A DNA stretch of 34,754 bases from positions 1-34,754 of IMG/VR virus record IMGVR_UViG_3300037493_000418. The stretch is one strand, 5' to 3'. This document shows positions 910 through 34,754 of this stretch, piece after piece. The stretch comes from a virus. Below the pieces are notes generated by a model. It was given only the letters and a program-made list of their open reading frames with translations. It made no database searches and was not told where the DNA came from. Numbering within the stretch: the first letter of the stretch is position 1; each line of letters starts with the position of its first letter. The translations under genes were made by a program, and so were the position numbers.

Positions 910-1176
910 TTATTCCCCGTATGTTGCATCGTAGTATTGCAATAAGTCACACTCAGAGTCACCGTCTAACTTTAATTGTCGAACAGCAGTGCAAATAATT
1001 GACCTTGCATCTTCAGGCATTGTCGTTTGCAGTGCAGCAATTAATCTGTTTGTACGATTGCGTTCAGTAAAAGCATCTTCCACTTTTGCTACAACTTCTT
1101 TATCAAGTGCGGCAATCGTTTCATCCAATTGATTAACAAGTGTTTCTAACGCTCTGATTTCAATAGATTTAATCAT
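910..1176 (-). CDS. Unknown coiled-coil-like protein (88 aa), copy A
   Basis: The start at 1176 overlaps the helicase stop by ATGA. The first 60 residues are rich in heptad-like leucine, isoleucine and charged residues and look like a helical coiled coil; the C-terminus is acidic and ends DATYGE. Copy B (34514-34754, cut by the window edge) is similar. No catalytic motif is visible and I do not recognise the family. Its place directly after the helicase suggests, but does not show, a replication-linked role. Confidence 0.6.
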   Translation of the reverse strand: MIKSIEIRALETLVNQLDETIAALDKEVVAKVEDAFTERNRTNRLIAALQTTMPEDARSIICTAVRQLKLDGDSECDLLQYYDATYGE

Positions 1177-2141
1177 TTTGTGTACTCGTAGTTAAAAGGC
1201 GCTTCGCTCGGGTTGCCGGTAAATTGCCCTGAGTCTTTGTGCAGCCATAAACCGATTGACGGTTCCCCATCTCCGCTGCCTTCAAAGTGGCGTTGCTTTC
1301 TGCAAAACAGAATCGAATCTGGCTCAGATTGCTTCTTGCCAAACTGTCCCAAGGTTCGGCGGTCATCTTCTTTCGGCTTGTTGCGCCAAACCATAAAAAG
1401 ATTGTCCACCTGGTCGGTGATGCTCCCGCTTCCTTTGGTGTCGTGCTTGTCAGGTATCTGCGCTTCGTTTGTTGGCTTTTTCAGGTGGTGGACCAGGTGA
1501 ATGTGGATCTGCAAGTCTTTGGCAATGGAAAAAAGTTCGCCCACCAGCCGCTTCTGGCCGTTCATATCGTCTTCATCGCCCACTACCTTCATCAGCGAGT
1601 CAATGAAAATATGCTTGATGCCCAGCTCCTTGGCGCAATATCGGCTCATGCCGATGACGGTTTCAGGGTTAGTCACGCCCATCTGGTCATAAATCCACAG
1701 GCGTTTATTGCTCCAGGCGCCAAAGCTGTCAAACATTTCGTCTAGCGCCTCATAGCCTTGGTCGTTCTGATATTCAGGCGTATACGGGTTTGTACCGATA
1801 AACATCCTGCTCATCAATCGGATTGTCTCAATTGGCTTCATTTCAAACGATGCCATGCAAACGCGCTCACCTTGGCTCATCAGGTGCATTGCTACCTGCG
1901 CGGTCATTTGGCTCTTGCCGTGGCCGTTTTGACCAGCCCAGACCGTCATCTCTCCTTCGCGGAAGTAAAACGAATCGTAGGATTTAACCCAAGGAAGGTA
2001 CAGTTTTCTTTCTGTAGAAAGATTTCGCATCCTTTCCTTAATCGCAGGAATGTAGTCAGCAGCAGGTCGCACTTTTTGCTTGTTGTCAGTTTCGCGCAGG
2101 TACTTCGAAAAGTCGATTGTGTCGGGGATTAGTTCAGCCAT
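1173..2141 (-). CDS. DnaB-like replicative helicase / RecA-fold ATPase
   Basis: This is a 322-residue P-loop ATPase of the DnaB C-terminal type. The Walker A motif is G-Q-N-G-H-G-K-S at residues 70-77. A hydrophobic Walker B strand ends at Asp181 (IKHIFIDSL), and an IHIHLVHHLKK strand follows at about 212-222, as in DnaB/Twinkle-type ATPases. A KGSGSITDQVDN segment at about 236-247 fits the later conserved motifs. It lacks both a primase domain and the DnaB N-terminal domain, so it is short for a replicative helicase. Some phages have such a short form. It follows the DUF1376 initiator-like gene in the same operon, so the two probably work together in replication. Confidence 0.85.
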   Translation of the reverse strand: MAELIPDTIDFSKYLRETDNKQKVRPAADYIPAIKERMRNLSTERKLYLPWVKSYDSFYFREGEMTVWAGQNGHGKSQMTAQVAMHLMSQGERVCMASFEMKPIETIRLMSRMFIGTNPYTPEYQNDQGYEALDEMFDSFGAWSNKRLWIYDQMGVTNPETVIGMSRYCAKELGIKHIFIDSLMKVVGDEDDMNGQKRLVGELFSIAKDLQIHIHLVHHLKKPTNEAQIPDKHDTKGSGSITDQVDNLFMVWRNKPKEDDRRTLGQFGKKQSEPDSILFCRKQRHFEGSGDGEPSIGLWLHKDSGQFTGNPSEAPFNYEYTK

Positions 2142-2466: not shown

Positions 2467-2639
2467 TTTCGTTCCTCCATCATTGCGTCTGCCATCCAAT
2501 AAGCATCTGCCGAAACTTGTTTTGGCAACCCAGTTAAGTTTTCTCTAGACAGAATGGCTTGCATAGCAAAAACAGCAAAGAAATCACGCAAAGTTATGTC
2601 TTGCAATGGAACTGGTGTTTTTTTGGTTTGGTTTTTCAT
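2463..2639 (-). CDS. Small conserved phage protein (58 aa)
   Basis: The start at 2639 overlaps the stop of the DUF1376 gene by ATGA. The sequence has L-R-D-F-F-A-V-F-A-M-Q-A followed by a short linker and A-x-x-Y-W-M-A-D-A-M-M-x-E-R at the end. This layout is very common in small phage and prophage proteins from replication regions of proteobacterial phages. The function is not established. It is about the usual length for that group. Confidence 0.65.
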   Translation of the reverse strand: MKNQTKKTPVPLQDITLRDFFAVFAMQAILSRENLTGLPKQVSADAYWMADAMMEERK

Positions 2640-3403
2640 GAGTAAGTCGGTAAAGTTGATTGATGAACGGAAGTGACTTCGTCTTGCCAACGGCCTTGGT
2701 TTAGCCAAGTAGCTGGTGCTGGTATGAATTGCCCACCATCCTTTTTCCACTGGTCGGTAGATTTCTGTTGGTCAATGGCTGACAACATTTGTTGCAAAAG
2801 TTCCTTGCCTACCTTTCGTTTGGCAAAGGATGTTTTGGCTAGGTCTTTGCCTTGCTTCTTTGGATACGCTTTCCAAAATTCATCAAACAGTTCGTCAGCA
2901 GGCTTGGCCTGCGGCTTCTCTTTTGTGGTTAGTGGTTCTTGGTTAATGGTTAATGGTTCATGGTTAGTGGTTGCATCAAGGGGGGCTAAAGGGTTCTTGA
3001 TGGGTACATGATGTGTACATGAAGTGACGTACTCCAGATGTGTTTTCTCAAGGTAGCACTTGATAAATTTATCCATGTGCACCAAAGATTTAAAGGTTGG
3101 GTTGTCACGGACAAGGGCGCCATAGGCGGATTTGGCTTGATGTTCTCGATAATTTTTGATCTCAGCATCTGCCCTTGGGTTGATAAACCCTTGCTCAGTG
3201 CTAACAAAAAACTCGCTTAAAACGCTCAAAACCTCTTGCTCATGCTCCCGCATAACAATCTGGCGAGCAATGTCCCGCTGCTTGATTGGAGATTCGTGAA
3301 GGTAGTAGTGGTCTAAGAGCCGCCTGTAGGCAATATCCTCAATCACTGTCAAATGATGGGTATGGCTCTTGTAGTCCCCAATATGGAACTGGTAGTAGTG
3401 CAT
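2636..3403 (-). CDS. DUF1376 replication-initiator-like protein
   Basis: The protein has 255 residues. The N-terminus (about 1-85) has the DUF1376 signature: YYQFHIGDY, T-x-x-L-x-x-x-E-x-x-A-Y-R-R-L-L-D-x-Y-Y, and H-E-S-P-I. A low-complexity linker follows at about residues 145-165. The C-terminal part has F-D-E-F-W-K-A-Y-P-K-K-x-x-K and G-Q-F-I-P-A-P-A-T-W-L-N-Q-G-R-W, shared by many phage replication proteins. DUF1376 genes usually occupy the lambda O position next to a helicase or loader, as here. The linker is encoded by a seven-base tandem repeat. The start has AAGG six bases upstream. Confidence 0.85.
   Translation of the reverse strand: MHYYQFHIGDYKSHTHHLTVIEDIAYRRLLDHYYLHESPIKQRDIARQIVMREHEQEVLSVLSEFFVSTEQGFINPRADAEIKNYREHQAKSAYGALVRDNPTFKSLVHMDKFIKCYLEKTHLEYVTSCTHHVPIKNPLAPLDATTNHEPLTINQEPLTTKEKPQAKPADELFDEFWKAYPKKQGKDLAKTSFAKRKVGKELLQQMLSAIDQQKSTDQWKKDGGQFIPAPATWLNQGRWQDEVTSVHQSTLPTYS
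2922..2970 (-). repeat. Seven tandem copies of a 7-base repeat inside the DUF1376 gene
   Basis: On the coding strand the sequence is seven consecutive heptamers close to CCAnTAA (CCACTAA, CCATGAA, CCATTAA, CCATTAA, CCAAGAA, CCACTAA, CCACAAA). As seven is not a multiple of three, the protein repeats only every 21 bases, giving an N-H-E-P-L-T-I / N-Q-E-P-L-T-T pattern. Similar N-H-K-P-L-T-I strings are common in phage replication proteins. The array could vary by slippage, or could act as an origin iteron array. Confidence 0.85.
3004..3025. repeat. Tandem 11-base direct repeat in the DUF1376 gene
   Basis: GTACATGATGT (3004-3014) is followed directly by GTACATGAAGT (3015-3025), with one mismatch. 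It lies 33 bases from the heptamer array, still inside the replication gene. It may be part of an origin, or simply a local duplication. Confidence 0.6.
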
Positions 3404-4549: not shown

Positions 4550-4626
4550 GGCTTTACCTCATGTACCGCAGATGCGGTTGGACTGTCATCAACTCTTTTA
4601 AACAAGCAATGAAAGCAATCAAATGA
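4537..4626 (+). CDS. Basic micro-protein (29 aa)
   Basis: It starts 13 bases before the end of the previous gene in another frame and ends in an ATGA overlap with the ERF gene. The protein is arginine/lysine rich (MHIVRLYLMYRRCGW start, ending KQAMKAIK). The overlap with ERF suggests it may mainly serve to couple ERF translation, but it could be a real small basic protein. Confidence 0.45.
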   Translation: MHIVRLYLMYRRCGWTVINSFKQAMKAIK

Positions 4627-5171
4627 AAAATATCGCCACCGCCCTTGTCAAAGCGCAAAAAGCCTTTGGCCCAGCCTTAAAGTCCTCTACAAACCCGCAT
4701 TTCAAAAGCCGGTACGCTGACCTTGCCGCGTGCGTGGAGGCCGTAATTGAAGGCTTAAACAGCGCAGGAATAGCCCTCGTGCAGCGCACCAGCCTGGACG
4801 ATAGCGGCGTGACCGTGGAAACCGTGTTTGTGCATGAATCCGGTGAAATGCTGGAGTGCGGCAAGCTGCATGTTCCATCTATCAAGCACGACCCGCAGGG
4901 CTACGGCTCGGCACTGACCTACGCACGTCGGTACAGTTTGATGGCAGCTTGTGGCATCGCCCCTGAAGATGATGATGGCAACGCTGGCAGCAAGCAGCCG
5001 CCCAAGTTGACAGAGGCAACCATGCAAGCATTGCTGGAAGACATTGCATCCTGTACTAATGAGGTGGAATTGAAAAACGCTTACTTTGAAGCTATTAAGG
5101 CCGTAGGCAACAACCAAAAAGCCAAAGACCACATCATTGCAGCCAAAGACGCTAAAAAGGCAACACTATGA
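4623..5171 (+). CDS. erf: ERF-family single-strand annealing recombinase
   Basis: The protein has 182 residues. The N-terminal two thirds matches the ERF family: L-V-K-A-Q-K-A-F-G-P-A-L-K, N-P-H-F-K-S-R-Y-A-D-L at about 22-32, and Y-G-S-A-L-T-Y-A-R-R-Y-S-L at about 96-108, the most conserved block. An acidic, glycine-rich hinge (PEDDDGNAGSK) joins it to a short helical C-terminus. ERF proteins anneal complementary single strands, as P22 Erf does when circularising genomes. The overlapping exonuclease gene and nearby SSB-like gene make this a complete annealing cassette, which fits a terminally redundant headful-packaged genome. Confidence 0.9.
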   Translation: MKNIATALVKAQKAFGPALKSSTNPHFKSRYADLAACVEAVIEGLNSAGIALVQRTSLDDSGVTVETVFVHESGEMLECGKLHVPSIKHDPQGYGSALTYARRYSLMAACGIAPEDDDGNAGSKQPPKLTEATMQALLEDIASCTNEVELKNAYFEAIKAVGNNQKAKDHIIAAKDAKKATL

Positions 5172-5794
5172 GCATACTTATTAGAGCAAGCGCCTTGTCC
5201 GCAATCATGACGGACGGCAAGGGTAAAGACGAACTGAGCGTAGGCGCTAAGACCTACATCACCAAGCTGGCAAAGGAATTTGTCTACGGATATGACGAAC
5301 GGGTGTCTAGCAAGTACATGGACAAGGGCATTCGGGTTGAGGACGCATCCATTGACCTGTACAACGCCGTAAAGCTAAGTAGTTACGCTAAGAACACAGA
5401 GCGCCGTAACAACGCTTGGTTGACTGGTGAAGCTGACATTGTGGCAACTCACAAAATCATTGACATTAAATCAAGCTGGTGCTTGACCACGTTTCCTGTG
5501 CTGTCTGAGCAAGGTGAAGACAAAGGCTATGAATGGCAGCTACGGGCTTACATGATGCTTTGGGACAAACCCTTTTCCGAGATTGCGTATTGCCTTGTTT
5601 CCACGCCTGATGACCTGATTGGCTGGGAGTCACCAAGCCTGCACCAGGTTGACCACATCAACCGCGAACTGCGCGTGACGCTGGTTCCATACGAAAGGGA
5701 TTTGGTCTTGGAGGAAAAGATCAAAGTCAAAGTAGAAGCCGCCCGACTTTACTATGACCACGTTGTTCGGGAAATTGCAAATCAACACAAATAA
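5168..5794 (+). CDS. PD-(D/E)XK exonuclease of the recombination cassette
   Basis: The 208-residue protein shows the PD-(D/E)XK pattern of phage exonucleases: a helical Glu (G-I-R-V-E-D, Glu58), G-E-A-D-I-V with Asp90, I-I-D-I-K with Asp99 and Lys101, then E-W-Q-L-R-A-Y as the Q-x3-Y motif of RecB/YqaJ/Cas4-type nucleases. It starts in an ATGA overlap with ERF, so the two are co-translated. The expected role is to resect double-strand ends to give ERF its single strands. I cannot tell from sequence alone whether it belongs to YqaJ or another branch. Confidence 0.8.
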   Translation: MSILIRASALSAIMTDGKGKDELSVGAKTYITKLAKEFVYGYDERVSSKYMDKGIRVEDASIDLYNAVKLSSYAKNTERRNNAWLTGEADIVATHKIIDIKSSWCLTTFPVLSEQGEDKGYEWQLRAYMMLWDKPFSEIAYCLVSTPDDLIGWESPSLHQVDHINRELRVTLVPYERDLVLEEKIKVKVEAARLYYDHVVREIANQHK

Positions 5795-33490: not shown

Positions 33491-33882
33491 GCGGAAAACC
33501 TCACGCCTTTTTCTGCGCCGAAGGCTTCCATTAAAGTCTGCAAATCACACATTTCCGCTTTGGTCATCTTGCTTGTTGACATTCCCAGAACAACAAAGCC
33601 ACCGTCCAAGCCTGGCACTACGTCCTGCTTTTTTAGTGATGCGGTGAAAACGTGCTTCCATTCCTCCGGCGTTAGCTTGCGCCCGTACCAGTCAACCTGG
33701 CTGCTGATTTCTGTCAGCATGGCCCAAAGACGCGAGTTCTGCTCAAGGCTGCGCGTAGCCGGTTTGATCTCTAGCACCATCTTATGCCCTGCCATTAGTG
33801 CGCTTTTTAACTGCGGCCAGATTGTTTTGGTCATTACCGTGTGGGCCTGGACTGGTTCCCAGCATTGGACTGCAAGTTTCAT
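33487..33882 (-). CDS. ninB: NinB-like recombination protein
   Basis: The complete 131-residue gene has the family core I-K-P-A-T-R-S-L-E-Q-N-S-R-L-W-A-M-L-T-E-I-S (about 40-61), W-Y-G-R-K-L-T-P-E-E-W-K-H-V-F-T-A (about 64-80) and V-V-L-G-M-S-T-S-K-M-T-K-A-E-M (about 97-111). NinB/Orf helps single-strand annealing recombination and fits with the ERF cassette on the other side of the control region. It starts by ATGA overlap with the nuclease gene. The first 99 codons recur, identical, at the left edge of the window. Confidence 0.85.
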   Translation of the reverse strand: MKLAVQCWEPVQAHTVMTKTIWPQLKSALMAGHKMVLEIKPATRSLEQNSRLWAMLTEISSQVDWYGRKLTPEEWKHVFTASLKKQDVVPGLDGGFVVLGMSTSKMTKAEMCDLQTLMEAFGAEKGVRFSA

Positions 33883-34166
33883 TTGACTACTCCGATCATT
33901 CTTAAAGCGGCTTCAGGGCCATCAACAATGCAAACTGGGCCTTGCCATGCACCGTGCCATTTCAATTGGTCTTCAGTTAGCTTTTGGGCTGATTTGGGCT
34001 TGCTACCGTCTTTTATTTCCATCAATAGATTTACCCCTCTGATTGACACCAAAAGGTCGGGAACGCCTTTCCCAAGCGCAGCCAATGATTGAACAGATGC
34101 GCCTGCCGCCCGTAATGCGCTTACAACTTGAATTTGATTTGAGTCTATTTTTGCTGCTCTTCGCAT
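33879..34166 (-). CDS. VRR-NUC-like PD-(D/E)XK nuclease, allele B (95 aa)
   Basis: This allele shows the full family pattern: G-K-G-V-P-D-L-L-V (first acidic residue), L-L-M-E-I-K-D-G (E-x-K), L-T-E-D-Q-L-K-W-H-G, then V-D-G-P-E-A-A-L. VRR-NUC proteins are PD-(D/E)XK nucleases found stand-alone in phages and as a domain of FAN1; the phage forms may cut branched DNA. The start at 34166 has GGAG eight bases upstream. The first 35 and last 15 residues align well with allele A, while the centre differs. It overlaps both neighbours as allele A does. Confidence 0.8.
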   Translation of the reverse strand: MRRAAKIDSNQIQVVSALRAAGASVQSLAALGKGVPDLLVSIRGVNLLMEIKDGSKPKSAQKLTEDQLKWHGAWQGPVCIVDGPEAALRMIGVVK

Positions 34167-34363
34167 AGTTCTGTCTCCGTTATTTCGCGCATATAGCCAC
34201 GGCATCGAGCGTCAAACCCTTTGCCGTAGTGAGTTTCAATCCTTGCGATCTGCTTTGTGAGCCAGGCGTTAGCCTTGGGCTTACCTAGCAGGGCAACAGT
34301 AGCAAAGTAGGACGGGACAAGCATCCTTGCCTCGGCTTTCTCTAGTTGACCGCGGTCACTCAT
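34145..34363 (-). CDS. Conserved phage protein of unknown function (72 aa), copy B
   Basis: It has the same length and start context as 541-759 and a very similar protein; the last few residues differ (E-E-Q-Q-K against D-T-L-Q-G). Many nucleotide differences are silent, which supports selection on the protein. It overlaps the zinc-ribbon-like gene by ATGA. Confidence 0.65.
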   Translation of the reverse strand: MSDRGQLEKAEARMLVPSYFATVALLGKPKANAWLTKQIARIETHYGKGFDARCRGYMREITETELCEEQQK

Positions 34364-34512
34364 TTGGTATAGCTGCGAAATGCTGGCTCTGCCGGTTTAT
34401 CTTGTCCACAGGCATGTTGAGTAGCTTCTCGCAATACTAACCAAGCCCAATTGCATTTAATGCACACCCAGTACGGCTTTTTACTCGGGCAAGTGTTTAC
34501 TTGTTTAAGCAT
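34360..34512 (-). CDS. Small putative zinc-binding protein (50 aa), copy B
   Basis: The translated frame from 34512 keeps all cysteines and the histidine of copy A, with changes such as R-S to W-A after the second cysteine pair and E to D near the end. The ATGA overlap with the next gene is also kept. It is too short to stand out by length but is supported by this conservation. Confidence 0.6.
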   Translation of the reverse strand: MLKQVNTCPSKKPYWVCIKCNWAWLVLREATQHACGQDKPAEPAFRSYTK

Positions 34513-34513
34513 A

Positions 34514-34754
34514 TTATTCTTCGTAAATTGCATCGTAGTATTGCAAAAGGTCGCATTCAGTATCGCCGTCCGACTTTAATTCTCGAACAGCAGTGCAAAC
34601 AATTGACCTTGCATCTTCAGGCATTGCCGCTTGCAGTACAGCAATTAATCTGTTTGTACGATTGCGTTCAGTAAAAGCATCTTCCACTTTTGCTACAACT
34701 TCTTTATCAAGTGCGGCAATCGTTTCATCCAATTGATTAACAAGTGTTTCTAAC
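34514..34754 (-). CDS. Unknown coiled-coil-like protein, copy B, 5' end cut by window edge
   Basis: This is the counterpart of 910-1176. The window ends inside the gene, so the first eight codons and part of the ninth are missing. The visible part differs from copy A at a handful of residues (for example Q-A-A-M against T-T-M-P region, and I-Y-E-E against T-Y-G-E at the end). The internal ATG at 34732 is not the true start. Confidence 0.6.
   Translation of the reverse strand, partial: LETLVNQLDETIAALDKEVVAKVEDAFTERNRTNRLIAVLQAAMPEDARSIVCTAVRELKSDGDTECDLLQYYDAIYEE

Follow-up and report, generated by a model that had tools for sequence, protein, structure and literature searches.

Tandem heptamers and adjoining 11-bp repeats inside DUF1376 genes suggest a phage replication origin within its own initiator gene

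Why should a gene coding for a replication-initiator-like protein carry a run of seven 7-nt repeats in the middle of its coding sequence? The window analysed here (the whole stretch of DNA, a viral record of 34,754 bases) contains such a gene at positions 2636–3403, on the minus strand. Its 255 aa product matched the Pfam family DUF1376 over residues 2–82 (E=1.4e-19), as well as the PHROG families ‘primosomal protein’ (1.5e-41) and ‘replication initiation protein’ (1.5e-25). DUF1376 is a Pfam family of unknown function, and it is this homology that makes the gene a probable phage replication initiator. The DUF1376 N-domain (3158–3400, minus strand) was modelled by AlphaFold2 as helices followed by two short strands. 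A fold search returned mostly winged-helix chains (best VIA-align Z 6.0); these matches were weak, and the domain is at most weakly winged-helix-like. Foldseek gave no match for the N-domain at E≤0.001, and a sequence search of the PDB gave none at E≤1. A segment of predicted helices follows (residues 88–130; 3014–3142, minus strand). Next comes a linker for which AlphaFold2 gave pLDDT values below 50 at residues 135–149 and 151–163 in the window protein. Beyond it lies a helical C-terminal domain recognised by PHROG and AlphaFold2 (residues 169–244; 2672–2899, minus strand). The linker, flanked by the ordered N- and C-domains, is predicted to be disordered. Downstream of the DUF1376 gene, and in the same direction, lies a gene for a DnaB-like replicative helicase (1173–2141, minus strand; Pfam DnaB_C 3.8e-14, PHROG primase/helicase 1.8e-55).

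A first-pass annotation of this DNA had reported seven CCAnTAA heptamers at 2922–2970, placed them in the linker between the DUF1376 and C-terminal domains, and proposed an origin like that of phage lambda, which lies inside gene O. The array is real, has seven units and does occupy the predicted disordered linker (residues 144–160), although its correct coordinates are 2926–2972. The array is read on the same strand that encodes the protein, the minus strand. Written as CCANNAA, the units are CCACTAA (twice), CCATTAA (twice), CCATGAA, CCAAGAA and CCACAAA, so that four of the seven fit the unit first proposed and three do not; AACCANN describes all of them better. The AACCA cores lie at an exact 7-nt spacing, at 2926–2930, 2933–2937, 2940–2944, 2947–2951, 2954–2958, 2961–2965 and 2968–2972. 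The pattern of four AACCANN units matched the window four times, in overlapping positions that all fall in the array, and was absent from 100 dinucleotide shuffles. Tandem Repeats Finder recovered the array with periods of 7 and 21. When the linker was redrawn with synonymous codons according to the usage of the gene itself, a seven-unit run was obtained in 0 of 20,000 redraws.

The heptamers do not stand alone. Three contiguous 11-bp direct repeats, absent from the first-pass annotation, occupy positions 2990–3022, upstream of the array on the coding strand: unit 1 at 3012–3022 (TCATGTACACA), unit 2 at 3001–3011 (TCATGTACCCA) and a degenerate unit 3 at 2990–3000 (TCAAGAACCCT), which counted by eye resembles unit 2 at 8 of 11 positions; all three are on the minus strand. 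They are separated from the heptamers by a G+C-rich 17-bp spacer (2973–2989, minus strand; A+T 0.41). Tandem Repeats Finder detected a period of 11 at 2998–3022, and an equally good 11- or 12-bp repeat appeared in 0.66% of synonymous redraws (p = 0.0066).

A gene-blind scan of viral contigs for four AACCANN units identified at least 120 loci. Among the 120 matches listed, 110 lie inside ORFs assigned to DUF1376 with a profile built from relatives, and all of these 110 arrays are on the sense strand. The same pattern in cellular genomes, and a control pattern (AAGGANN) in viral contigs, each gave 0 of 120 among the matches listed in DUF1376 genes. ACCAANN was unusable as a control, since AACCAAN arrays match it too; 69 of the 90 new loci that it found fall in DUF1376 genes. 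For a sample chosen without regard to the repeat, the N-domain of a Vibrio phage alone was used to retrieve 80 loci, giving 68 distinct proteins with a length of 190 aa or more. Runs of at least four AACCA heptamers were present in 47 of these 68 genes (26 distinct arrays, so that tests on such related sequences are only partly independent). Four or more AMMCANN units (M being A or C) were present in 67; the AMMCA core was generalised after variants had been seen, partly in the counted set, a circumstance from which the AACCA count is free. In the same set, four other cores with two degenerate sites, as well as AAGGA, gave no arrays at a 7-nt spacing, and AMMCA gave none at five other spacings. 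Most of the relatives lacking AACCA show a variant heptamer (AAACA, ACACA, ACCCA or AACTA) at the same place.

Records of named phages supplied a further 14 DUF1376 genes. AACCA runs of three or more units were found in seven: Pseudomonas phage MR13 (6), Methylophilaceae phage P19250A (4), Vibrio 1.184 (7), phiAC-1 (3), Mcat18 (4), Thalassomonas phage BA3 (7) and Mcat24 (4). ValSw3-3 and phPA-G have a run of 2, and five of the 14 a run of 0–1. Vibrio 1.003, with an AACCA run of 0–1, has five AMMCA units; Vibrio 1.039 has an AACTA array; AbTJ has an AACCN array, recognised by eye; and Xanthomonas Rb1 has four CCA at 7 nt. Among the closest relatives, L123, L125, L126 and L127 have AACCA runs of 1–2; L123 and L125 contain six variant-core units by eye, while the arrays of L126 and L127 are broken or hexameric. 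The first-pass annotation had named homologues without a repeat at this position as a counter-indication. Most have a variant in place, but the E. coli Rac YdaU group lacks AACCA heptamers and the DUF1376 gene of ctQRb9 shows no clear 7-nt array. A primase/helicase, DnaB-like or replicative helicase is annotated directly after the DUF1376 gene in five of the named phages; in the rest the neighbouring gene carries another annotation.

The 11-bp repeats were followed in 215 distinct genes, 211 of them with a recognised DUF1376 domain; pattern-selected genes were included, the stretch upstream of the heptamers being outside that selection. Scored as at least 9/11 identity within the 70 nt before the heptamers, an 11-nt-spaced repeat was present in 59% of these genes, versus 2% in a control stretch. 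Spacings of 22, 12, 23 and 24 nt were also raised, and all others between 8 and 30 nt were at or below 3%. Direct, iteron-like units at a helical-turn spacing occur both in the window and across this larger set. Their sequence differs between subfamilies (five or more classes, with 42 genes left unclassed), the commonest best spacing being 11 nt in each class. In the N-domain-selected set, autocorrelation of the linker peaked at lags 11 (0.40) and 7 (0.37); elsewhere the values at these lags were 0.25–0.30 for the N-terminal part and about 0.26 for the C-terminal part. Gene by gene the 11-bp repeats are statistically weaker than the heptamers: of the 59 genes tested by synonymous redraws, 58% reached p<0.05 and only 14% p≤1/300 for these repeats, whereas the observed heptamer run was matched in at most 1/300 of redraws for 97% of the 59.

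The heptamers are constrained as DNA. In the 68-gene set, array codons were located through the peptide motif N[HQ][KEQ]P, which is blind to the DNA sequence. Array Asn was encoded by AAC in 72 of 72 cases (61% elsewhere in these genes), Pro by CCA in 72 of 72 (28%), Thr by ACC in 51 of 51 (26%), Ile by ATA in 44 of 48 (16%) and Leu by TTA in 13 of 13 (16%). The last base of the heptamer, followed in 77 pattern-selected and 26 N-domain-selected distinct arrays, was T in 85–93% of units read in the ANN phase, 70–78% of those read NNA and 0% of those read NAA. A T in the latter phase would generate a TAA stop, which accounts for its absence; the reading frame alters the array solely where it is forced to. 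Further, the AAACANN and ACACANN variants carry one changed base in each unit, even though the units encode different amino acids at the three codon phases; it is therefore the DNA, and not the peptide, that repeats. These sequence patterns argue that selection acts on the array at the DNA level.

We consider it likely, judging from sequence comparisons, that the array and the 11-bp repeats form a phage replication origin inside the gene of its own initiator. The 11-bp repeats resemble classical initiator iterons in that they are subfamily-specific and keep the helical-turn spacing. The A+T-rich, nearly invariant heptamers probably resemble, by analogy, an origin-opening element. We infer the binding, opening and helicase-loading steps, and the division of roles between the two elements, as follows. 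The 11-bp direct repeats at 2990–3022 would serve as duplex iterons, bound on the same face of the helix by several DUF1376 protein molecules; the heptamers next to them at 2926–2972, AT-rich and with hardly any G, would be opened and then held single-stranded; and this is where the DnaB-like helicase of the downstream gene would be loaded. Since both elements lie in, or next to, codons of the disordered linker, they could be kept at little cost to the protein. Over 60 genes, the array has an A+T content of 69%, compared with 46% for the 60 nt that precede it and 53% for the remaining gene sequence; on the coding strand, G makes up 4% of the array but 23% of the gene sequence ahead of it. In the window itself the contrast is small (array 62%, 11-bp repeats 58%, gene 55% A+T).

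GC-skew, suggested in the first-pass annotation as a check, has its minimum close to the gene in most of the phage genomes analysed. In the window the detrended minimum falls at 2,531, some 0.4 kb away from the array and 0.5 kb from the middle of the gene. In eight of nine phage genomes the minimum lies within 12% of genome length of the DUF1376 gene, and the mean distance over the nine is 0.073 of genome length versus 0.25 expected (P=2e-5 if positions were uniform), although transcription also diverges in the region where the minimum lies, which is a confounder. The minimum of P19250A is 12 kb away from the gene. Two phages without an AACCA run, AbTJ and Vibrio 1.039, also have the minimum near the gene.

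The class of the 11-bp repeat is clustered on the tree of N-domains (38 changes versus 86.8 when shuffled). Kinship of the N-domain was expected to fix the class, but the class switches between close N-domains: that of the window is 85% identical to the N-domain of a relative (L140) with another repeat class. The segment following DUF1376 matches the repeat class in 166 of the 166 genes carrying both labels, but the labels and their regular expressions were written after viewing examples and tuned by eye (of the 215 genes, 17 have a segment label and no class label, and 32 no segment label). Because the segment adjoins the repeats and the labels are post hoc, common descent of a single block explains the match as well. 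Within each class, most genes have AACCA as their heptamer core. These observations raise the possibility, which we advance only tentatively, of a cassette that phages of the whole family can exchange. A basic recognition segment, the 11-bp duplex sites belonging to it and a near-universal 7-bp array read as single strand would share a single stretch of coding sequence, and recombination would transfer the specificity of the protein along with the sites that match it; the arrangement would be the phage counterpart of DnaA-box plus DnaA-trio.

Several explanations would dispense with an origin. Selection might act on the peptide (TNxEPxT repeats, for instance as a docking motif), the DNA repeat being a by-product, and the linker peptide is indeed recognisable across many phages. 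This is hard to reconcile with the fixed synonymous sites, some of which use codons (ATA and TTA) that are in the minority outside the array, or with AAACA variants that alter several residues yet retain the 7-nt DNA period, and we regard it as highly unlikely. Equally unlikely is a slippage-born heptamer microsatellite of the kind found in bacterial genomes, tolerated in the linker. Heptamer arrays are common in bacteria, TAACTGA (PMC4679880) and GGGAATC (PMC4692102) being described, in the parts of these papers that deal with them, mainly from intergenic DNA; AACCA arrays are also present in cellular genomes. The phage arrays share with those repeats the tandem unit of seven, but they keep a five-base core with free bases and sit in one gene family, at one position and with fixed codons, the 110 of 120 listed matches in DUF1376 genes being far from a mainly intergenic placement. 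The homogenisation of units that slippage should leave was not seen in either set of phage arrays: the two free bases are shared between units at 0.44 (77 arrays) and 0.46 (26 arrays), versus 0.82 in 89 chromosomal arrays matching the same pattern, and run length among the matches listed is 4–9 units versus 4–39. The first-pass suggestion that slippage varies the length of the array is not supported by these figures. Descent from chromosomal heptamer repeats was likewise discarded: none of the many cellular AACCA arrays listed lies in a DUF1376 gene, and they were therefore treated as separate. A role at the level of RNA, for instance as a set of protein-binding sites carried by the initiator mRNA, would agree with the sense orientation of all 110 listed arrays in DUF1376 genes; the helical-turn spacing of the adjoining repeats, however, indicates duplex DNA, leaving this explanation very improbable.

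Other readings keep a role for the DNA. The locus could be an origin in which the heptamers themselves are the duplex binding sites of the initiator (three units make 21 bp, two helical turns), with the 11-bp repeats secondary. In favour of this, conservation is higher for the heptamers (67 of 68 genes) than for the 11-bp-spaced repeats (59% of 215). Still, the AACCA core stays constant across subfamilies whose 11-bp repeats differ, which makes it less like a specific iteron, and the array is strand-asymmetric and A+T-rich; we take this version of an origin to be rather unlikely. The locus could also serve as a recombination junction for swapping initiator domains, or as an operator or packaging site. 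The C-terminal domain does differ between phages on the far side of the heptamer array, and the block of segment plus repeats changes between close N-domains such as those of the window and L140. A recombination junction, though, needs neither an 11-bp helical spacing nor A+T-richness, and the host gene consistently belongs to the initiator-like DUF1376 family. Such other roles appear improbable.

The preferred reading, an intragenic origin with 11-bp iterons and a heptameric opening element, can be set against known systems. The iterons of lambda and Stx phages are about 18–19 bp long. Their origin lies in the middle of gene O and combines iterons (four in lambda, six in Stx phages) with an A+T-rich tract, as given in the part of PMC7466680 concerned with it. 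The present locus is like it in its position inside an initiator-like gene, between the domains, in the A+T-rich tract beside the repeats (clear over 60 genes, weak in the window) and in the replication-partner gene alongside, here a helicase gene downstream. It differs in that the repeats are 11 bp (one turn), that a strict 7-bp array makes up the A+T-rich part, and that DUF1376 is a different Pfam family from lambda O. Nearly all the comparative tests agree with the lambda-O-like origin first proposed, with the amendment that the array is preceded by the 11-bp repeats. In iteron plasmid origins such as RK2 oriV, the initiator holds repeats of the opening region single-stranded, according to the relevant part of PMC10797057. 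Initiator iterons together with repeats in the opening region would be common to both, but the RK2 DUE contains 13-mers, while the present locus has units of 11 and 7 bp, placed within coding sequence. Origins made of DnaA-boxes and DnaA-trios, also treated in that part of PMC10797057, offer a working analogy, in which short repeats recognised in single-stranded form come after a duplex site; trios are of 3 nt and read by DnaA, whereas the units here are of 7 nt and would be read by a phage protein.

DUF1376 is mentioned in PMC5795418. In the open-licence literature, outside which most subscription journals lie, we found no description of an 11-bp plus 7-bp design, nor anything joining DUF1376 with iterons, or phage with origin of replication, heptamer and iterons. 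The locus would work like a lambda-type intragenic origin, and its two-repeat design appears undescribed. If this is true, the origin would be located and the initiator defined for a large set of phages. The array would also be a strict compromise between two codes, the DNA favouring AACCA(A/T)T and the reading frame forbidding that T in each third unit. In addition, the family would provide a natural series of recognition segments with matching sites for studying how initiator specificity changes.

Some minor observations were made along the way. A G-quadruplex on the GG strand was considered and rejected, as it is not conserved (the AAACA and ACACA variants have no GG); a DnaA box, of partial likeness by eye only, was dropped. 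Cellular AACCANN arrays (L202–L321) are common, many of them in Bacteroidota and cyanobacteria, often without a convincing overlying gene, and are made of homogeneous units, up to 39 copies among the matches listed. The public annotation of MR13 gp61 (L533) and its neighbours names the DUF1376 gene an antirepressor, which looks wrong, and the next gene a globin, which is doubtful. Another initiator-like family (Aurca01 type; L541, L711–L789) has an MR13-like C-domain and an N-domain without a Pfam match. No AMMCA array was found in 73 of its genes; its linker contains repeats of GATTCCT type with a 15-nt period, encoding SLIPD, which are perhaps an intragenic origin of their own. In the window, an Erf-like annealing protein gene (4623–5171) and an exonuclease gene (5168–5794) lie on the strand opposite to the DUF1376 gene, beyond a divergence point near 3.8–4.0 kb. 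Finally, the ends of the record are near-duplicates: positions 1–343 and 488–1150 correspond to about 33584–33926 (343 nt, 99.7% identity) and 34092–34754 (663 nt, 89.4%), and the genome may be circular or have terminal redundancy, with two strains joined in the record.
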